A stretch of 30,874 nucleotides of DNA from a virus: the IMG/VR virus record IMGVR_UViG_3300020192_000058, positions 1-30,874 of that record, one strand, 5' to 3'. Below the pieces are notes generated by a model. That model searched no databases, was not told the origin of the DNA, and saw only the letters and a program-made list of their open reading frames with translations. Shown here in pieces: positions 5,650-14,381 of this stretch. The translations under genes and the position numbers were made by a program. How positions within the stretch are numbered: position 1 is the first letter of the stretch; each line of letters opens with the position of its first letter.

Positions 5650-6194
5650 GAACCCACGAGGTTGACGAGTTCCTTAACCGCTACTTTGCATGCCCGGAAG
5701 GGCGAGAGTTTGCGGCCGGATATTCCACGCTCCATGCGGCATGGGACGCCTGCGATCGCGTGCCTTGGCTGGTTTGGGCACGATGGCATAGCGTCCCGGC
5801 TGACCGGGAACAGCTGCGACTGTTCGCGTGCTGGTGTGTTCGCGAGACCCCGCTTGTGCACGGGCGGAAAGTTTGGAACCTGCTGACCGATCCACGGAGC
5901 CGAAACGCCGTGGAGGTTGCTGAGCGTTTTGCAGTTGGCGCGGCGACGAGAGAAGAGCTCGCAGTCGCCTACCGTTCCGCCCGCGACTTCCCCCTCTCCG
6001 TAGCAGCCGACGCAGCAGCCGACGCAGCAGCCGAGGCAGCCACATCCTCCGACTCCACCGCAGCCGCTGCCTACATTGCAGCAGCCTGCGCCGCATGCAT
6101 CGAAGCCGCATACGGTTCCGCTGCAGCCCAGACGTTCCAGCTCACGGAATTTCGCCGGAGGTTCAGCAACCCGTTCAAACCAGAAACACCATGA
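5646..6194 (+). CDS. Ala-rich hypothetical protein (182 aa)
   Basis: Function unknown. The body contains REQLRLFACWCVRETP, followed by AVEVAERFAVGAATREELAVAY. It ends in an alanine-rich helical stretch (AADAAADAAAEAA, about residues 120-150) encoded by short GCAGCCGAC repeats. This combination of a Trp/Cys-containing helix, the 'AVEVAER.A.G.AT.EEL..A' block and Ala repeats is a pattern I associate with uncharacterised proteins of Planctomycetes, Verrucomicrobia and similar bacteria, usually chromosomal. It may therefore be a host-derived passenger gene. It overlaps the previous gene by four bases. Assignment beyond 'hypothetical' is not justified. Confidence 0.7.
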   Translation: MRTHEVDEFLNRYFACPEGREFAAGYSTLHAAWDACDRVPWLVWARWHSVPADREQLRLFACWCVRETPLVHGRKVWNLLTDPRSRNAVEVAERFAVGAATREELAVAYRSARDFPLSVAADAAADAAAEAATSSDSTAAAAYIAAACAACIEAAYGSAAAQTFQLTEFRRRFSNPFKPETP

Positions 6195-6331
6195 CATCGC
6201 CGATTAAATTCGGCCATCGACCACTCTCCCGCGCAACGAAACTGTACAGGCGTCAAACAAGACCTGGGAACCTGTACGATTGCGCGGGAACAATTTTCAA
6301 CTGTGACAATGGATTCGAAAATCAGCGCTGA
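6191..6331 (+). CDS. Possible small ORF (46 aa), doubtful
   Basis: This short open frame begins with an ATGA overlap at the end of the Ala-rich gene, like its neighbours, and would encode a basic 46-residue peptide. Against it, the DNA here contains a conspicuous inverted repeat (6227-6289), and the frame overlaps the better-supported next gene by 23 bases. I list it because of the coupled start. The stretch may equally be a regulatory spacer with no protein product. Confidence 0.3.
   Translation: MTSPIKFGHRPLSRATKLYRRQTRPGNLYDCAGTIFNCDNGFENQR
6227..6289. repeat. Two-part inverted repeat (possible hairpin or operator)
   Basis: Outer arms are TCCCGCGCA (6227-6235) and its exact complement TGCGCGGGA (6281-6289). 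Inner arms are GTACAGG (6244-6250) and CCTGTAC (6271-6277). The loop is 20 bases. The arms are separated by 8 bases on the left and 3 on the right, so a hairpin would have an asymmetric internal loop. There is no T-run after it, so it is not an intrinsic terminator. It lies between the accessory-gene run and the replication genes, where an operator or RNA structure would be sensible. Confidence 0.55.
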
Positions 6332-6497
6332 AGTCCTTTCATCAATACTTAGACTTCAAGCCAAACCCCCAGCCAAGCCAGCCACACCACTGGAACAAAC
6401 CGGCGAGACCACGACAATTCTGCGCACGGGAGAGGTTTTCAGAACCACATCGAACGGCCGCACCGTTCAACTATTTCCTGCACCGCCAAGCAAATGA
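6309..6497 (+). CDS. Hypothetical small phage protein (62 aa)
   Basis: This small protein has a helical start (MDSKISAEVLSSILRLQ), a Pro/Ala/Thr linker and a short beta-like end (GEVFRTTSNGRTVQLFP). No family recognised. The ATG at 6309 was taken as start; an in-frame GTG two codons earlier is possible. Its stop forms an ATGA overlap with the primase-helicase start, which is the main reason to believe it is translated. It could be a small partner of the primase, but nothing in its sequence shows this. Confidence 0.6.
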   Translation: MDSKISAEVLSSILRLQAKPPAKPATPLEQTGETTTILRTGEVFRTTSNGRTVQLFPAPPSK

Positions 6498-8566
6498 CTT
6501 TTTACGACACCGCCAAGCAACTCCAACGCGTCGGGATCTCAACGATCCCTTGCAAGGCCGGCAAGCTGGCAGCCATTAAATGGGGCGACTACGAGGCCCG
6601 CCAGCCCACCGACGGGGAGCTGGTGGACTGGTTCGAGCTCGATCAACCGGTTGCCATGGCCCTCATTGGTGGGCGGGTAAACTGCCTCGATTTCGACGAA
6701 AAATACTCCGCGGGCATTTTCCACCGCTACCAAGTGCGGGCTGATGAAACCGGGCTCGGCGGTCTGGTACGCGAGCTTTTGCGTCAGCGCACCCCATCAG
6801 GTGGATACCATCTCGTTTGGATTTGTGAATCCAACAAGCCCATTCGGAGCCTGAAGCTCGCATCAAAGGCCAACCATGAAACGATGGTCGAAACACGGGG
6901 CGCCGGCGGGTATTTTCTCATCTCACCGAGTCCAGGCTACGAAATTGAGGCAGGATCGTTCTCCGACATCCCTAAAATTTCAGTCGAAGATCGGGACGCG
7001 CTTTTGGATCTTGCCCGAACTTTCGATGAACGCGAACGTCCCAAGGAGGTCGGACCGACCTCGCCTCTGCCGGCTGTAAGCGGGGAGAGTCCAGCGGACG
7101 ACTACGACCGCAACGCAGATGTGCCGGCGTTGCTGCGGAAGCACGGCTGGAAGCCCGCAGGCCGGTCCGACAAATATTGGACAAGGCCAGGCAAGGAGCG
7201 CGGCGTAAGCGCAACGTGGAACGTGGTTCCGGGGAGATTTTACGTGTTCTCGAGCTCAACCAGCCTGGAGCAGGGGCACGTTTATCGACCGGCATGGCTA
7301 TACGCGGCATTGGAGTGCGGGGGCGACTACGCCAAGGCGGCTGGCGAATTGCGCCGGCAGGGGTTCGGTGGAGTCCGAGCCAACCACGCGCCAAAGACGC
7401 TCACTCAGTACATCGATGACGCAGAGATTGTGGATATGCAGATCGGTCCCGCGGAGCATGATGATCCAACATTTATCGAGGGCGTCGACCCATCTGGTCA
7501 GGCTCCAACAACGGAATCCGAGGATGACCGTATCCGCCGAATGTTGCATGCCCGCCGGTTTGATCCATCAATCAAGCCTCCTGAAATCCGGGTAGTTTTC
7601 ACCATTAAAGGTTCAGTTGTTTCTACAGTTGGCAACTTGACAGCCATCGTTGCACCTCCCAAAGTCGGGAAGACGGCCTACGTAAGCGCGATCGTGGCAG
7701 CGACCATGACCCCGAATCCGGCAGATGTGGATTTGTTAGGTGTGGTCGGATACAATGCGCGCGGGCTGGGCGTACTGATGATCGACACCGAACAAGCTCC
7801 AGATGATTTTTGGCACAGCGTAAATCGCTCGAGGCAGCGGGCTCGAACGGAGGCTATGCCTGATTGGCTGGAGGCCTACACGGTGGCAGATCTGCCGGCA
7901 CCGATCGCGCGGCGTGCCGTTGGCATCAAGATGGCCGACATGGCGGAGCAGCATGGCGGGTTATGGGCCATCATTATAGATGGCGTGGCGGATCTCGTCT
8001 TGGATGTTAATGATGCTGCTGAATGCAATGCGCTGGTGGCCGAGCTGCACGGGCTAGCAATCAGGCACTCCTGCGCCATTGTTTGCGTGCTTCATCTCAA
8101 CCCCGGCAGCGATAAGGCACGAGGGCATCTCGGCTCTCAAATAGAGCGAAAGGCGGAGTCCAATCTCAAAATCGACAAGGACGACGCCGTATCAATAGTC
8201 TGGTCGAATAAACAGCGGCGCGCCCCAATCGACAAGGCGTTTGGGCCACGATTTGCGTGGTCCGATGATGCCAAAATGCACGTCACAATTGCAGGGGATG
8301 ATACCGGCATGACCCGAAAGGATCAGCGCAAGGTGATGGAGTGGGTCGAAATCGCCCAATCGGTGTTTCGCCCAGGCGTCCCGCCAATGCCCTGGACCGC
8401 CTTGGCTGAGGCCCTTCAGGAGGCACGCAGGACCGCGAACGGGGCACCATCTCCGGACACTGTACGGCGCTGGATCAACGAGATGAAACGGCTGGGAATC
8501 ATCTCGGTTTCCTTTGGCTCCTACAGCTTATCTCAAGTCATTTCTGATACTAAAGCAAATGATTAA
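6494..8566 (+). CDS. Bifunctional primase-polymerase / RecA-like replicative helicase
   Basis: The 690-residue protein joins two replication activities. Residues 1-180 are a prim-pol domain: LDFDE at 65-69 supplies metal-binding acids, TPSGGYHLVW is at 100-109, and ETRGAGGYFL at 133-142 is the typical 'ETRG.GGY' signature. A linker follows. About residues 370-620 then form a RecA-fold ATPase of the RepA/DnaB type, with Walker A APPKVGKT (K393), DTEQ shortly after, and Walker B WAIIIDG (D496). The last 80 residues resemble a winged helix (TVRRWINEMKRLGIISVS). It would synthesise primers and unwind DNA at the phage origin. The repeat-rich segment immediately downstream (8578-8764) is the obvious candidate for that origin. 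Confidence 0.92.
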   Translation: MTFYDTAKQLQRVGISTIPCKAGKLAAIKWGDYEARQPTDGELVDWFELDQPVAMALIGGRVNCLDFDEKYSAGIFHRYQVRADETGLGGLVRELLRQRTPSGGYHLVWICESNKPIRSLKLASKANHETMVETRGAGGYFLISPSPGYEIEAGSFSDIPKISVEDRDALLDLARTFDERERPKEVGPTSPLPAVSGESPADDYDRNADVPALLRKHGWKPAGRSDKYWTRPGKERGVSATWNVVPGRFYVFSSSTSLEQGHVYRPAWLYAALECGGDYAKAAGELRRQGFGGVRANHAPKTLTQYIDDAEIVDMQIGPAEHDDPTFIEGVDPSGQAPTTESEDDRIRRMLHARRFDPSIKPPEIRVVFTIKGSVVSTVGNLTAIVAPPKVGKTAYVSAIVAATMTPNPADVDLLGVVGYNARGLGVLMIDTEQAPDDFWHSVNRSRQRARTEAMPDWLEAYTVADLPAPIARRAVGIKMADMAEQHGGLWAIIIDGVADLVLDVNDAAECNALVAELHGLAIRHSCAIVCVLHLNPGSDKARGHLGSQIERKAESNLKIDKDDAVSIVWSNKQRRAPIDKAFGPRFAWSDDAKMHVTIAGDDTGMTRKDQRKVMEWVEIAQSVFRPGVPPMPWTALAEALQEARRTANGAPSPDTVRRWINEMKRLGIISVSFGSYSLSQVISDTKAND

Positions 8567-8577
8567 AAGTGACACTT

Positions 8578-8764
8578 ACCCTTATTTACCCTTAAGTAAG
8601 GGTAAGTGTAAGGGTAAGGGTATATGCATCATGACTCATTTACCCTTAACCCTTATCCACCCTTATTCCTACCCTTATGCGGGCCTACCCTTATTACCCT
8701 TACGCCCCCCCTATATATAGGGGGGCGTGTAAGGGTAAGGGTAAGTGTGAGGGTACCCTTACCC
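8578..8764. repeat. ACCCTTA/TAAGGGT repeat array, candidate replication origin
   Basis: This is non-coding DNA between the primase-helicase gene and 8844. The heptamer ACCCTTA occurs exactly at 8578, 8588, 8642, 8649, 8659, 8671, 8687, 8696 and 8755, and its complement TAAGGGT at 8597, 8609, 8615, 8730 and 8736. A near copy, TGAGGGT, is at 8748. Copies lie in both orientations, forming large dyads around 8621-8641 and around a perfect palindrome CCCCCCTATATATAGGGGGG (8706-8725). Clustered short repeats beside a replication protein gene are typical of iteron origins. G-runs from 8720 to 8753 could also form a quadruplex. Function is inferred from position and structure. From 8765 to 8843 I see nothing specific. 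Confidence 0.6.
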
Positions 8765-8843
8765 GCACCAATGCCTCTGCCCCACCCAAATCCACCCAAA
8801 ACGTAACACCTGCAATCCGCAATATCTTTTCACAGGCAACCAA

Positions 8844-9230
8844 ATGACAATACCAAAACAATTCACACAAGTACTCCCACCGACCGCCGGCCTGACATTC
8901 GGCGAGGCCGACGCACCACAATGGGTCGCCGTGCGTTTCGACGGCCAAATCGACATTCGCTCGGGAATGTCTCCCTACTCACTCAAAACCATCGCACGAT
9001 GGCCCGGCAATTGGGCATGGTGCCTCCATTCCGAGCTCATGGGGGTGATTGAGCGGGGAACGGCCGAAAACCCCGCCACGGCGACGGAACCACCCAGCGA
9101 CCCCCATTTGCCGGCCAAGTACGATGCTTGCGATGAGCTCTGGAAAGACTTCTCGGCAATGTGGGACGAGGCCAGACGGCTGAACGCACTCATGGCTGAT
9201 GTGCTCAAGCGCATGGAGGGTCCTCGATGA
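8844..9230 (+). CDS. Hypothetical phage protein (128 aa)
   Basis: No family recognised. The N-terminal half is Trp-rich and beta-like (APQWVAVRFDGQIDIR, ARWPGNWAWCLH). A Pro-rich linker (about residues 75-90) leads to a C-terminal helix of heptad type (ELWKDFSAMWDEARRLN). There is no Shine-Dalgarno sequence before the ATG. It is the first gene after the repeat array, and its stop overlaps the next start by four bases, so it probably heads a short three-gene cluster before the packaging genes. Confidence 0.7.
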   Translation: MTIPKQFTQVLPPTAGLTFGEADAPQWVAVRFDGQIDIRSGMSPYSLKTIARWPGNWAWCLHSELMGVIERGTAENPATATEPPSDPHLPAKYDACDELWKDFSAMWDEARRLNALMADVLKRMEGPR

Positions 9231-9445
9231 GCTCAGCAAACGACCCCGTAATCCTCATCAGCTCCGCCGATTCCGAGCCCATACTCATCACTGCACCCAC
9301 CTCGTTCACCTTCACCAACGACGCTGGCGAGGTCGGCACACTATCATGGCACGATGGCACGTTTCGCTTTTCAGGCAATGCTGATGCCTCGGCCCGCGTC
9401 TTCTTTGATGCCCTAAACCAATTATCAAAAACAATCACTCGATGA
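9227..9445 (+). CDS. Hypothetical small beta-rich protein (72 aa)
   Basis: Function unknown. The sequence alternates hydrophobic and polar residues as in a small beta sheet (NDPVILISSADSEPILITA, FTFTNDAGEVGTLSWHDG) and ends in a short helix (ASARVFFDALNQL). No Cys, catalytic motif or membrane segment is visible. Overlaps of four bases at both ends argue that it is translated together with its neighbours. Confidence 0.65.
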   Translation: MSSANDPVILISSADSEPILITAPTSFTFTNDAGEVGTLSWHDGTFRFSGNADASARVFFDALNQLSKTITR

Positions 9446-9930
9446 GCACACACCCTGATGCCTGCACCCAATTCCCCTACTCGGATGTGGAGAGCAGCAT
9501 CGACGGTCCACCCTCCGACCCCAACGAACTACGCGATGCAGCCTACAGTATAGCGGCACGTGGCGCACACGAGTACATGCGATGGCTCATCCTCGGACCA
9601 TCGCATGCAGGCATCACATGCACCCAGTCACCGTACATGCCGATCATCGCCAAGCGCGCTGTCGCCGCCGCTTGGGTTATCGACCCTTCACTATTCGCCG
9701 GTCGCTCCATGCGCCACGTAGCTCGCGCTGTCGGCATGAGTAAGTCACAATTGGATACGCTGATCCTTCAATTCTCATTCATATTCCGGATGCACGGACG
9801 CGGACAGATGCCCGTATCCAGACGTGCACTATACATCAGCAGGCCAACCAACCCGCGACTGCAACGCGCAGATGCAGCCTGCCACCGAGGGCGATCAGCC
9901 AAATCGCTCCGTGGTCGCGCAAAACCCTAG
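9442..9930 (+). CDS. Helix-turn-helix-like protein, possible regulator
   Basis: The 162-residue protein has a Cys/Tyr-rich N-terminal region, a helical middle, and about residues 87-112 a segment GRSMRHVARAVGMSKSQLD that reads as a helix-turn-helix (helix, GMSK turn, recognition helix). The last 35 residues are very basic and low in order. Such a protein directly before the terminase genes could be a late-gene regulator or a DNA-binding packaging accessory; both are inference. The start overlaps the preceding stop by four bases. The codon pattern of the basic tail looks less typical than the rest, so a C-terminal alteration is possible. Confidence 0.65.
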   Translation: MSTHPDACTQFPYSDVESSIDGPPSDPNELRDAAYSIAARGAHEYMRWLILGPSHAGITCTQSPYMPIIAKRAVAAAWVIDPSLFAGRSMRHVARAVGMSKSQLDTLILQFSFIFRMHGRGQMPVSRRALYISRPTNPRLQRADAACHRGRSAKSLRGRAKP

Positions 9931-10072
9931 TCAATTGCAATGCAACAGGCCTAGTGCCACCCCCATGCGAAAGGAATCTCTTTGGTAAAACAACTCGTTG
10001 GCTGGGTCCGCGACAGCCCACCGTTTACTCGCACGGCAGTTTCCGAAACATCTTCCCACTCCCACAACTAAC
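9931..10072. other. Spacer before the terminase genes
   Basis: This is the largest gap in the right part of the accessory region, just upstream of the small terminase gene. In lambda-like phages the cos site and terminase-binding sites can lie near this gene, but I recognise no cos-like overhang, clear promoter or terminator. The only structure noted is a weak inverted repeat, GGCTG with CAGCC nine bases later, near 10000-10018. Confidence 0.3.
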
Positions 10073-10681
10073 ATGCAACAAGATAGCGACACTTTGACGC
10101 CTCATGACGTAAGGAAATTGCAACGAAAGATGCAACAAGGCATCCCGTTGACCGCGGAGGAGAGTGAGGCGGTTGCAGCAACTGCCGGCAAGCCGACCCT
10201 GTTTGCGCAAAACCAAACCGAACTTGCCGCTGCGCTCGGAGTATCACGGAGGTCGATACTGGTATGGTCCAAGCAAGGGGCGCCGAGGCCCAGGCCGAAC
10301 GGCCACTACGAAATAGCCGCGTGGCAAAAGTGGGTGCGTGACAACGGGAGGAATGAAAAGGCGACGTCGGCACGTTCCGGCAAGGGAGGTGGGATCGCCC
10401 AAACCAAACTCAAGGCGACGGCCCGGAAACTACAGCTCCAAAACGAAAAGCTTGAAGCGGAGATTGGCATCCTGAAGCGCGACTACCTGAAGCGCGATGA
10501 GGTCGAGACCGAGATTGCGCAACTGATCGTTGGGGCTCGCACCGTTGGCGAGCAGATGCCGGCGGCGCTTGCACCGCAACTTGCCGGGCTCGACATCCCG
10601 CAGATCGAGATCCGGCTTCGGCAGTGGTGGGATGAATACTGCGAGAAGCTGCACCGAGGGGCGGCGGTGGACGACGTATGA
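10073..10681 (+). CDS. Terminase small subunit (Nu1-like)
   Basis: This 202-residue DNA-packaging protein would recognise phage DNA and recruit the large terminase subunit. Residues 45-80 form a winged helix-turn-helix of the Nu1/MerR type (TELAAALGVSRRSILVWS, with the wing GHYEIAAWQKWV). A Gly/Lys-rich linker follows, then a coiled coil (KLQLQNEKLEAEIGILKRDY). The C-terminal segment has the pattern LAGLDIPQIEIRLRQWWDE, expected to contact the large subunit. An upstream TTG at 9998 would lengthen the protein, but the ATG at 10073 begins nearer the conserved part. There is no Shine-Dalgarno sequence. The stop overlaps the large terminase start (ATGA), supporting the pairing. Confidence 0.88.
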   Translation: MQQDSDTLTPHDVRKLQRKMQQGIPLTAEESEAVAATAGKPTLFAQNQTELAAALGVSRRSILVWSKQGAPRPRPNGHYEIAAWQKWVRDNGRNEKATSARSGKGGGIAQTKLKATARKLQLQNEKLEAEIGILKRDYLKRDEVETEIAQLIVGARTVGEQMPAALAPQLAGLDIPQIEIRLRQWWDEYCEKLHRGAAVDDV

Positions 10682-12501
10682 GCCTGAGAATATACTGGTG
10701 CCGGCGATGGAAGCCAGCCGACCGTAGGCAGCCATGGCTGTGGGCGGAGGATCACGTGATTGTTGATGCTACGAGTCCGATGCCTGGCAAGTGGCGCTCG
10801 GACAATTCGCCATGGGTAAAGGGTTTCCTCGAAGCGTTCTCGGACCCGAATGTAAGCGAACTTGTAACGATGTGTTCGGCGCAATCGGCGAAGACCCAGA
10901 TGGTTATGGTTGCGCTGTTCTGGGCCGTGGCTGAATCGCCGGGGCCGATACAGTGGGTCATGGCGGCAGCGGATGAAGCGAAGGAGTTTGCGCGAACACG
11001 ACTCATCCCCGAGGTGCTGAATTGTAAGCCGGTCGCCGCACTGCTTGCGTCGGAACCGGGGCTTACGTCCATCGACTTCATTGGGTCGGCGTTCCTGATG
11101 ACTGGAGCAAACAGCAAATCAAAGCTCCAGTCGAATCCGAAGCGTTATCTATTTCTCGATGAAGTCCGGAACTATCCGCCCGGTGCATACGAGATGGTGC
11201 GCAAGCGCGTGAGAGCGTTTCGCAACTCGAAGATCTGCACGATTTCGACGCCGGACAAAACGAATGACCACGTTCACCGCGCCTACCTCGCTGGAAATCA
11301 GCAGTGCTGGCACTTCGCTTGTCCGGCGTGTGGGCATGAGCAGCAGCTCCATTTTCGGCAGTTCAAGTGGGATAAGAACGAGACGACGCGGCCGGAAGGG
11401 AGATGGGACTTTGACAAGCTTGCTGACACGATCCGGTTTGAGTGCGAAAAATGCGCACACCCGATCAAGGACACGCCGTCAAACCGGCGCATGATATGCG
11501 GGGGTGGATGGATCGCAATGAATCCGGACGCGCCACGAAACCGAGTATCCTTTCACTGGAACGCATTCCTTCCGCCGTGGGTAAGGTGGCGCGACAACGT
11601 GGTTGAGTTCATCACATCGTATTCAGTTCTCAAGAACGGTGATCACGAGTCGTACAAGTCGTTTATCAATGAGACGCTTGGAGAGCCATGGGAGGATCGG
11701 CTCAAGGAGGTTACTGACTTTGGGGCGCTGGAGCACAGGCGTGCATCGTATTCGCTGGGTGAACCGATGCCCGATGGGTGGGTTCCGATCCTTTCTATAG
11801 ATGTGCAGAAGGATCACTATCGATATGTGTGCCGCGCTGTTGGGCCGCTCGGGGCTTCGAGGCTTGTGGCATTCGGCAGGGTTACGGCCACGGCTGATGA
11901 TGCCGAGCTGGACGCGCTGCCGGACAAGTTAGGTGTTGATGCCGGGGATGTATGTATAGACTCAGGACACGCGGCGGCGAGGGTATATCGGATCTGTATG
12001 CGCAATGGGTGGAAGGCGTTCAAGGGTAACGACACTGAATACTTCACGGCAAAGATCAAAGATGCGGCTGGGTACGAGAAGAAAGTGCGGAGATTATGGG
12101 CTCTGGCCTATGTTGATCCGGCGTTGGGAATGAAGAGCGATGGACCGCGACGCCCGAAGCCGATCAAGCTTTTCCACTGGAGCAATCCAGGTATCAAGGA
12201 CGTAGTGGCTGAATGGATGGCAGGGCTGGGTCCTGACTGGTGTATTCCGAATGATGACACGGAACAGATGCGTGAGTACATTTCGCAGGTCACCGCACAA
12301 CGGCGGGTTGAGCAGGTTGATGCCAAGGGCACCGTGCGCCACGTCTGGGTGCAGACCCGCAGGGATAATCACTATGGCGACTGCGAGGAAATGATTGCGG
12401 TTGCGATGCTGGCCAAGCGGCTTGTCGGCCGGTCACCGGGTGATCCGAAGCCCGGGAAACCGGCGCCGGCGTCGGCTGAAGATACGAGCTACGAGGATTG
12501 A
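10678..12501 (+). CDS. Terminase large subunit (GpA type)
   Basis: This 607-residue packaging motor and nuclease cuts concatemers and pumps DNA into the prohead. The ATPase half shows CSAQSAKTQ at residues 66-74, the variant Walker A of the lambda gpA family. Walker B YLFLDEV is at 157-163 and the coupling motif ICTISTP at 186-192. A zinc-type pair follows (CPACG at 215-219, CEKC further on). In the nuclease half, ILSIDVQKD (D375), CIDSGHAA (D428) and GDCEEM (D568) give the three acidic metal ligands. GpA-type terminases usually cut at cos sites, so cohesive ends are likely. It forms an operon with the small subunit. Confidence 0.96.
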   Translation: MSLRIYWCRRWKPADRRQPWLWAEDHVIVDATSPMPGKWRSDNSPWVKGFLEAFSDPNVSELVTMCSAQSAKTQMVMVALFWAVAESPGPIQWVMAAADEAKEFARTRLIPEVLNCKPVAALLASEPGLTSIDFIGSAFLMTGANSKSKLQSNPKRYLFLDEVRNYPPGAYEMVRKRVRAFRNSKICTISTPDKTNDHVHRAYLAGNQQCWHFACPACGHEQQLHFRQFKWDKNETTRPEGRWDFDKLADTIRFECEKCAHPIKDTPSNRRMICGGGWIAMNPDAPRNRVSFHWNAFLPPWVRWRDNVVEFITSYSVLKNGDHESYKSFINETLGEPWEDRLKEVTDFGALEHRRASYSLGEPMPDGWVPILSIDVQKDHYRYVCRAVGPLGASRLVAFGRVTATADDAELDALPDKLGVDAGDVCIDSGHAAARVYRICMRNGWKAFKGNDTEYFTAKIKDAAGYEKKVRRLWALAYVDPALGMKSDGPRRPKPIKLFHWSNPGIKDVVAEWMAGLGPDWCIPNDDTEQMREYISQVTAQRRVEQVDAKGTVRHVWVQTRRDNHYGDCEEMIAVAMLAKRLVGRSPGDPKPGKPAPASAEDTSYED

Positions 12502-12507
12502 TCTGGT

Positions 12508-12533
12508 AAGCGGACAAGGCCGGTCATGGTAGG
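12508..12533 (+). promoter_or_regulatory. AAGCGGACA junction motif, copy 1
   Basis: AAGCGGACA (12508-12516), then 12 bases, then GTAGG directly before the ATG at 12534. The same arrangement recurs at 15228, 18669 and 28433. It sits in the gap between the large terminase and the gpW-like gene. It could be a phage-specific promoter or a translation signal; the spacing does not fit a sigma-70 promoter. Confidence 0.4.
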
Positions 12534-12806
12534 ATGACCGTCCAGGGAATATACGTTGGAATTGAAGAGCCTCAGCTCGTCGGAATGCGAGCTGATGTCC
12601 TTGCGCAGCTCACGCTTGCAAGGCAGGGCAAGAGGCTGAACGCGCTTTCAGGCGGAGGAAAATCGTTTGGCAAGCAGCTCATGAGCGTCGATGAATTGAA
12701 CCGCGAGTTGCTGGAGATCCGGCACGCACTGAAGAAGGCGAATCCAACGGTGCACGGACGGACGGTCCGCAGACTACACGCCGACTTTAGCCGCAACCTG
12801 CTGTAA
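12534..12806 (+). CDS. gpW-like head-tail connector protein
   Basis: This 90-residue protein lies exactly where lambda W lies, between the large terminase and the portal. Its middle and end follow the gpW pattern: ADVLAQLTLARQGKR (helix, then Gly-Lys-Arg hairpin), a short loop with GGGK, then SVDELNRELLEIRHALKK (second helix). gpW-type proteins sit under the portal after packaging, retain the DNA and prepare the neck for the tail. The first 18 residues are an extension not seen in lambda gpW, which is about 68 residues. Assignment rests on position and helix pattern. The ATG follows copy 1 of the AAGCGGACA motif. Confidence 0.72.
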   Translation: MTVQGIYVGIEEPQLVGMRADVLAQLTLARQGKRLNALSGGGKSFGKQLMSVDELNRELLEIRHALKKANPTVHGRTVRRLHADFSRNLL

Positions 12807-12809
12807 CCC

Positions 12810-14381
12810 ATGGCATCATTTATCGACCGCGCCCGCAAGGCACTCGCCAACGCAATCACGCCCGAAGTGTTGGAGCGGGAGGAGAACCGAGCCAAGGCAG
12901 CCGGCATCAAGCCGAACGAGTTTAACCGTGCCGTATCTACGGCTTTCAACTTTTACGAGGGCATCAAAGTCTCGAGGGAGCGGACGAGGATTCATACGAC
13001 GCTGTCGGATACGGACCAAACCAACTCCGCATTCGTCCGGCGCGAGCATGCCGGCATTGCGCGACACCTCTACGCCAACGACGGCATGACTCGTGGGTTG
13101 ATCAACGACATCAGCCGCTACACGGTTGGCTGCGGGATGAAGCCGCAGGGCACGAGCAGAAGTCAGGACTGGAACGATGCTGCTGAGGATTATTGGGAGG
13201 AGTGGGGCTACCGGGCCGACTACAACCGGCGCAACCATTTCGGCCGGCTTCAGTTTCTTTGGCAGGTGGGAGAGATCCGAGATGGCGACATCGGGATTGC
13301 GCTGGTCCGAGATGAGCAGGGCGGCCCCCAGGTGCAGAGCATTCGAGGCCACCGCATCGGCAATTTTGGGGAAGATACCGTTGGGCTGAAGGATGGCGTG
13401 CGACTGGATGGCAGCGACCGGCCGATGTCGTATCGGGTGCGGACGACAGCCGACCCGAAGAACGGAGACCCCGGCTTCCGTGAGATCCCGTCAAACTCGT
13501 TCATTCTCTTTTGCGAGCCACAGGAGACGGACGCGGATCGTGGGCTGACTGCGCTACATCATGCGATCAACCATGTGCGTGACAAAAAGGATACGATCGG
13601 GTTCGAGAAGACCGCGATCAAGAATTTGTCGGCATTCACTGCGGTCCTGAAAACCAAGTCTGGCACGACCGATGCCGACGACTGGAATGAGGATGCTGCA
13701 ACATCAACGGATCCAACGAACATCACCCTTGCACAGATGCAGAGCGGGCAGATCCCGGTAATATCGACCGAGGAAGATTTGCAGGCGTTCAGGAGTGATC
13801 GTCCATCGCCGGCCTTCATGGGTTTTCTTGAGTTTCTGATTCGCGAGATCGCCGCAGGACTTGGGATACCGTATGAGTTTGCGTGGAATTCGGAGAAGAT
13901 CGGCGGCGCGGTGGTTCGGTTTGTATTGGAGAAAGCACAGCGACGCTTCGATGAACGGCAGAAACATTTCGCAACCAAGGTTTTGCAGCGGATTTGGGGG
14001 TACGTGATCGCGGACGCAATCGCACGCGGTCGACTGCCCGATGATCCGCGCAAGTTTATCGTTGAGTGGCAGCCACCGGCAGCGATCACGGTTGATGCGG
14101 GGCGCGATGGCAACAGCGACCGGCAGGACGTGCTGATGGGGCTGATGTCGGAGTCGGATCACTACGCAATGCGAGGGCTCGACCGGCGCCGGAAGCGGAA
14201 CCTGATCGAGAACGAGGCGGACGACCTGCTGCTGCGTGCCAAGCGACTTGTCGATTCGCACGGCATCACGCTTGAGATGGCAATCCAGCTTCTCCGTCAG
14301 ACCGCGAGCAACCAATTCACAACGGCGTTTTCTCAGCCGAGCGGGAACGCCGGCCAACTTCCGCCGCCATCATCGCCATGA
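12810..14381 (+). CDS. Phage portal protein, lambda family
   Basis: This 523-residue protein would form the dodecameric ring at one capsid vertex, through which DNA enters and leaves and to which the neck binds. Characteristic segments are RHLYANDGMTRGLINDI (about residues 86-102), SRYTVGCGMKPQG, RHFxRLQFLWQ-like NHFGRLQFLWQ, GDIGIALVRDE, and later LIREIAAGLGIPYEFAWN. All of these match the lambda gpB family. Length agrees with the family's usual 480-560 residues. The C-terminal 40 residues are Gln/Ser/Pro-rich and probably disordered. The start is four bases after the gpW-like stop, without a Shine-Dalgarno sequence. The end overlaps the protease gene by four bases. Confidence 0.95.
   Translation: MASFIDRARKALANAITPEVLEREENRAKAAGIKPNEFNRAVSTAFNFYEGIKVSRERTRIHTTLSDTDQTNSAFVRREHAGIARHLYANDGMTRGLINDISRYTVGCGMKPQGTSRSQDWNDAAEDYWEEWGYRADYNRRNHFGRLQFLWQVGEIRDGDIGIALVRDEQGGPQVQSIRGHRIGNFGEDTVGLKDGVRLDGSDRPMSYRVRTTADPKNGDPGFREIPSNSFILFCEPQETDADRGLTALHHAINHVRDKKDTIGFEKTAIKNLSAFTAVLKTKSGTTDADDWNEDAATSTDPTNITLAQMQSGQIPVISTEEDLQAFRSDRPSPAFMGFLEFLIREIAAGLGIPYEFAWNSEKIGGAVVRFVLEKAQRRFDERQKHFATKVLQRIWGYVIADAIARGRLPDDPRKFIVEWQPPAAITVDAGRDGNSDRQDVLMGLMSESDHYAMRGLDRRRKRNLIENEADDLLLRAKRLVDSHGITLEMAIQLLRQTASNQFTTAFSQPSGNAGQLPPPSSP

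Follow-up and report, generated by a model that had tools for sequence, protein, structure and literature searches.

The window analysed here is the entire IMG/VR record of 30,874 bp. Its gene at 6494-8566 encodes a 690-aa protein that combines a primase and a helicase, and a non-coding array of the heptamer ACCCTTA/TAAGGGT begins 11 bp past the stop codon of this gene. About 80 bp separate the end of the array from the next likely start (8844), and its neighbours in the gene order are early-type genes on one side and packaging genes on the other. The record further encodes an SSB-like protein, a DEAD helicase, RusA, a methyltransferase, terminases, portal, S49 protease, major head and tail proteins. 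Since terminases, portal, major head and tail genes are present, the element is, judged by its gene content, a tailed phage rather than a satellite. The features of the locus are as follows.

6311-8842, no strand: cassette of gene and array, missing as one unit in the related phage fragment L009 (blastn)
6494-8566, + strand: candidate initiator gene, 690 aa, with Prim-Pol (aa 11-148), RecA/DnaB-like AAA_25 helicase (aa 380-536) and winged helix (about aa 608-680)
8315-8533, + strand: segment coding for the C-terminal winged helix (wHTH, aa 608-680), predicted reader of the heptamer (model; co-variation)
8572-8609, no strand: left dyad with 17-nt arms (94% inverted repeat), covering the first two + heptamers and most of the first two - heptamers
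8578-8621, no strand: upstream heptamer group (+ 8578, 8588; - 8597, 8609, 8615); a similar extra group (++-) occurs in relatives G001 and L252
8642-8677, + strand: canonical block R1R2 (8642, 8649), R3 (8659), R4 (8671), in the same order in relatives
8687-8702, + strand: tandem heptamers R5R6, -29/-20 from the palindrome centre (usually -25/-17 in relatives)
8706-8725, no strand: perfect 20-bp palindrome CCCCCCTATATATAGGGGGG, proposed melting/hairpin element
8730-8742, - strand: inverse heptamers R7R8, +14/+20 from the palindrome centre
8755-8761, + strand: trailing heptamer, of which G001 has one too

The primase-helicase and the array at its 3' side

Both domains expected of an initiator of the PF09250 plus AAA_25 type score over their curated Pfam cut-offs in the 690-aa protein: Prim-Pol (PF09250) with E=2.7e-6 and 28.4 bits against 22.8, AAA_25 (PF13481) with E=1.2e-11 and 45 bits against 27. 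The protein contains LDFDE (65), GGYH (103) and VETRG (132), which from knowledge of the families we take to be AEP-like motifs, and at 388 a presumed Walker A. The AF2 model of aa 345-690, built from 17 sequences (the window and relatives), has a pLDDT of 87.5 and shows a RecA/DnaB-like ATPase and, C-terminal to it, three helices with two strands, a fold that in the model is a winged helix. The best matches of this model in a Foldseek search of the PDB are DnaB and RAD51-family chains. A sequence search of the PDB gave no match, and single-sequence AF2 of the whole protein gave no usable model (pLDDT 35).

The array comprises 14 exact heptamers, nine on the + and five on the - strand, in the order ++---++++++--+. 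The count and the non-coding character given by a sequence-only reading are confirmed, as is the start of the array at 8578; its last base is 8761 and not 8764. No further copy occurs on either strand of the whole record. In 100 dinucleotide shuffles the heptamer appears 1.2 times on average and four times at most, so its clustering is indeed not due to chance. In sliding 277-bp windows away from the array surroundings the commonest heptamer has fewer than six copies, versus 14 in the array. The locus thus has the repeat cluster of iteron-type origins, with short repeats beside the initiator gene that are rare elsewhere.

The two dyads proposed previously are present (8612-8651, centred at about 8631, 80% complementary; 8694-8738, centred at about 8716, 89% complementary), but the strongest one, with arms 8572-8588/8593-8609, had been overlooked together with the palindrome at 8706-8725. 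The palindrome is flanked by heptamers on both sides, and its AT-rich part is only the 8-bp core TATATATA between GC arms. Folding of the array region as single-stranded DNA gives z = -7.4. The resemblance to telomeric repeats is superficial, as the start-to-start spacing of neighbouring heptamers is irregular (6-34 bp); the array is moreover internal to the record and gene-linked, and a telomere reading was dropped. Nor does the cumulative GC skew turn at the array, as had been suggested it might: its minimum in the window is at 10.1 kb, and the skew of G001 is without a turn at the array as well; as a mark of the origin the skew was set aside as uninformative.

Just left of the cassette a long inverted repeat (6227-6297; CCCGCGCAA...CTGTACAG / CCTGTAC..TTGCGCGGG) precedes a short T run. 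This element is terminator-like and is also found in L009.

Arrays in relatives and their common geometry

Exact-peptide scans with the whole 690-aa protein found no relatives, and the DNA of the array region had no similarity match among named phages. Three relatives, L210, L211 and L212, were reached by protein alone via alignment with Bacteroidales members; their arrays consist of ACCCCGA, ACCCCGA and ACCCCAA, respectively, each plus GCCCCTATATGTAGGGGC. A scan for the palindrome brought further ones from Akkermansia, Opitutaceae, other Verrucomicrobia and Tangfeifania MAGs, and genome searches within the phylum of those hosts (Verrucomicrobiota) added about 40. The 50 regions compared come from the window and from relatives found on viral contigs and in genomes of Verrucomicrobiota.

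Of the full relatives, the viral contig G001 (36 kb) is the closest. Its initiator protein shares 57% identity with that of the window over aa 5-680, whereas TerL and portal reach only 26-28%. At the same place, directly past the gene, it carries 11 copies of ACCCTCA in about 200 bp (five elsewhere in the 36 kb), and their order, trailing + copy included, nearly matches that in the window. The phage fragment L009 is 96.7% identical to the window and lacks 6311-8842, that is, gene and array together (blastn: L009 114-288 = window 6117-6310, L009 280-5077 = window 8843-13649). Inheritance of gene and array as one cassette is thereby shown at the level of sequence. Being without the primase-helicase gene and the putative origin, this phage either replicates by another module or is defective; the contig is only 5 kb long.

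In each region a 350-bp stretch around and beyond the stop codon was compared with all other windows of that length in the same locus. The commonest heptamer exceeded every background window in 34 of the 50 regions, so that the comparison with relatives suggested earlier finds the array directly 3' of the gene in G001 and in most others. About a third of the relatives have no array above background. None was seen after the gene in Calle and Shambre1, nor in the Bacteroidales/Prevotella members, though the wHTH of the Bacteroidales is similar.

The heptamers are lineage-specific (ACCTTCA, ACCGTCA, ACCGACA, ACGCCCC, AGGCTAT, ACCCGCA, ACTCCGA, AACCTAC and others). A frequent layout consists of a tandem pair, two single copies, a second tandem pair about -25/-17 from the palindrome centre and an inverse copy at +9 to +20. 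The palindrome is often a GC-armed TATATRTA, and its spacing to the heptamers is fixed. Within 40 nt past the last tandem pair the palindrome arms of 38 arrays average 6.7 bp versus 3.2 bp in shuffles, and the letters of these arms vary from array to array. A palindrome CCCCCTATATATAGGGG was also encountered in Acidaminococcus (L249, about 860-1040) among DnaA boxes resembling TTATCCACA; this place looks like a chromosomal origin, and the sequence may fit the palindrome pattern by chance.

The probable reader domain of the heptamer

Among 36 non-redundant arrays the similarity of the heptamers correlates with the identity of the wHTHs when the helicase core is controlled for (partial Mantel r=0.449, p=2e-4), and not with the identity of the cores when the wHTH is controlled for (r=-0.034, p=0.64). 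Single pairs demonstrate the same. The cores of L210 and L212 are 96% identical, their wHTHs 48%, and their heptamers differ; Akkermansia and L211 have cores of 56% and wHTHs of 66% identity and the identical heptamer. At the DNA level the identity of L210 and L212 is mostly 90-97% as far as the wHTH, drops to about 50% across it and to 43-77% in the array, and is mostly 90-98% again beyond. We therefore strongly infer from co-variation that the C-terminal wHTH of the 690-aa protein is the reader of ACCCTTA. It is by comparison only (partial Mantel test and the L210/L212 pair) that the repeat-specific DNA-binding domain of iteron-type origins is recognised here, and co-variation identifies the reader of the heptamer, not that its reading starts replication.

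The N-terminal part is swapped across the family, being Prim-Pol, DnaB-N, PriCT_2, BT4734-like_N or none recognised. As the heptamer tracks the wHTH and the N-terminus is free to change, the array appears from these sequences to be tied to helicase and wHTH and not to the primase. The exchange is seen in L280, L281, L291 and L300, where DnaB-N, PriCT_2 or BT4734-like_N stands at the N-terminus, the C-terminal part stays and the 3' array is found in most.

Comparison with known systems and probable function

PICI origins lie immediately 3' of rep and consist of two sets of iterons around an AT-rich region; for EcCICFT073, a plasmid assay was carried out on the pri-rep-ori segment (PMC6092414). 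The window shares with SaPIs and PICIs an origin-like region directly past the primase-helicase gene (the array starts 11 bp from the stop) and short element-specific iteron sets flanking a melting region (PMC6092414), which is a putative one in the window. It differs in the RecA/DnaB-like helicase joined to Prim-Pol, in the GC-armed TATATRTA palindrome in place of a plain AT-rich stretch, and in being a phage with terminase, portal, capsid (major head) and tail genes of its own, whereas those elements are satellites without a full capsid/tail set. Mixed orientation around a central element, considered by the sequence-only reading as a possibly new architecture, is known from PICI/SaPI and P4 crr (PMC6092414).

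P4 alpha likewise unites primase, helicase and a repeat-binding C-terminal winged helix in one polypeptide, and crr, whose repeats point in both directions, is annotated as starting 46 bp past the stop codon of alpha. P4 requires ori1 and crr, of which crr alone lies 3' of alpha. P4 differs in its Toprim primase, SF3 helicase (D5/DUF5906), Pox_D5 C-terminus and repeat GGTGAAC as well as in having ori1 elsewhere; the window has Prim-Pol and AAA_25 with a DnaB/RecA fold instead. The iterons of RSF1010 oriV, which works with RepA, RepB' and RepC, are longer than the heptamers of the window. The same tasks fall in RSF1010 to iterons, a helicase, an AEP primase and a pair of priming sites (PMC4538821, PMC4234260), but initiator, helicase and primase are divided over three proteins (PMC4538821), versus one polypeptide in the window. 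The origin of pRN1 requires, besides the replication operon, no more than a 100-bp stem-loop 3' of orf904, and ORF904 is also an AEP primase with helicase and C-terminal wHTH (PMC4234260); its helicase is however SF3 and its single long stem-loop is without iterons, of which the window has 14 along with several dyads. In phage NrS-1 a Prim-Pol joined to a helicase domain recognises TTTGGTTA (PMC8718748, PMC7102993), and such short words are proposed as the origin; only two 8-nt copies, one per strand, lie at the genome centre (PMC7102993), compared with 14 copies probably read by the wHTH in the window. The system of the window would work like those of PICIs, pRN1, RSF1010 and NrS-1 but fits none of them fully.

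In 9 of 12 cases a dense array fetched by the heptamer of the window follows just behind a DUF5906 primase-helicase gene; control arrays of the reversed letters are not near such genes. In the phages L106, L166, L148, L163, L152, L172, L178, L031 and L062 GTTAAGGGT-type arrays in both orientations stand within the 200-300 bp directly past the DUF5906 (SF3) gene, which is the layout of the window with an unrelated helicase. The common heptamer was rejected as a sign of homology because the arrays were fetched by it, and only their position is informative. Both-strand arrays of other words directly past primase-helicase genes (L202-L205, L201, L206, L200) follow SF3-type genes in Pseudomonas phages (CCCAACACA, TAACCA) and Moraxella phage Mcat1 (CCTGCAC), and Prim-Pol genes in Arthrobacter phage PeggyLeg03 (AGTGACA) and a Streptomyces plasmid (GCAGGGA). 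Mixed-orientation ACCCTTA groups (e.g. +++-+-) also stand just upstream of Sf6-like small terminase genes (L080 7649-8044, L068, L054, L083 and others), where they are possibly packaging sites or an origin.

Very probably the array is the replication origin of the phage, an iteron cluster with a melting/hairpin palindrome, and the product of the gene directly upstream is its initiator. This is argued by an array beyond chance that is confined to one place, immediately behind the gene of a primase-helicase whose model ends in a wHTH, by arrays at the same place in G001 and most relatives, by the co-variation of heptamer and wHTH, by the fixed palindrome geometry, by the loss of the cassette as a unit in L009 and by the tested 3' origins of PICIs and pRN1. 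Array conservation and co-variation likewise favour the earlier suggestion that the 690-residue protein binds an iteron-type origin here. The lack of a GC skew turn at the array, the third or so of relatives without an array above background and its absence from Bacteroidales members with a similar wHTH speak against an origin.

It is unlikely that the array is an accessory element which, similarly to crr, raises the local concentration of the initiator or controls copy number while replication truly starts elsewhere. The position of P4 crr 3' of alpha, beside a separate ori1, and the distance of about 1.4 kb between the array and the GC skew minimum would agree with such a role; the record, however, is without a second heptamer cluster, the conserved palindrome with its AT core is inside the array, and in PICIs and pRN1 the gene with its 3' region suffices (PMC6092414, PMC4234260). 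wHTH domains are often transcription regulators, and an array between early-type and packaging genes could serve as an operator where the bound protein regulates transcription of the downstream genes (8844 onwards) and not replication. This seems highly improbable: promoter-like and terminator-like matches in the array region are at or below chance (one weak promoter-like match on the - strand, 8850-8821), the reader domain belongs to the same polypeptide as a replicative helicase, and the anatomy of the array is constant while the downstream genes differ between some relatives. We give equally little credence to the heptamers being template recognition sites of Prim-Pol itself instead of wHTH sites. 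The NrS-1 Prim-Pol does read an 8-nt word at a proposed replication start (PMC8718748, PMC7102993), but arrays are mostly kept where the N-terminus is DnaB-N, PriCT_2, BT4734-like_N or none detected, and it is the wHTH that the heptamer tracks.

If the array is the origin, the wHTH would bind the ACCCTTA copies in both orientations, as co-variation strongly suggests. Several bound monomers may then assemble the hexameric helicase at the GC-armed TATATATA palindrome, which would melt or extrude. The RecA/DnaB-like motor would unwind the DNA, probably bidirectionally since the palindrome has inward-facing heptamers on either side, and the N-terminal Prim-Pol, by analogy with its family, would lay the first primers on the exposed strands. 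Joint diversification of the heptamer and its reading domain would keep co-resident replicons off each other's origin.

The layout itself is not new, as SaPI/PICI, P4 crr and pRN1 origins are also 3' of primase-helicase genes. Three features are apparently new against the literature compared: the layout occurs with a DnaB-type helicase that itself bears a wHTH, heptamer and wHTH diversify in concert, and the palindrome is present. We tentatively propose, while being inclined to doubt so broad a reading, a widespread undescribed class of origins, mainly of Verrucomicrobiota phages and mobile elements. In this class a DnaB-type (SF4-like) helicase with its own origin-binding winged helix would load itself and need neither a separate initiator nor a separate loader, the palindrome would be a hairpin for priming of two strands, and heptamer and wHTH would be selected to co-diversify against cross-firing. 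If such a class exists, its natural variants would constitute a recognition code that can be read. The origin of an uncultured phage is seldom pinpointed, and here the probable reader domain, its words and the proposed melting element can be indicated from sequence. Dozens of natural pairs of word and reader on a common frame would make DNA recognition by winged helices and incompatibility of origins directly testable.
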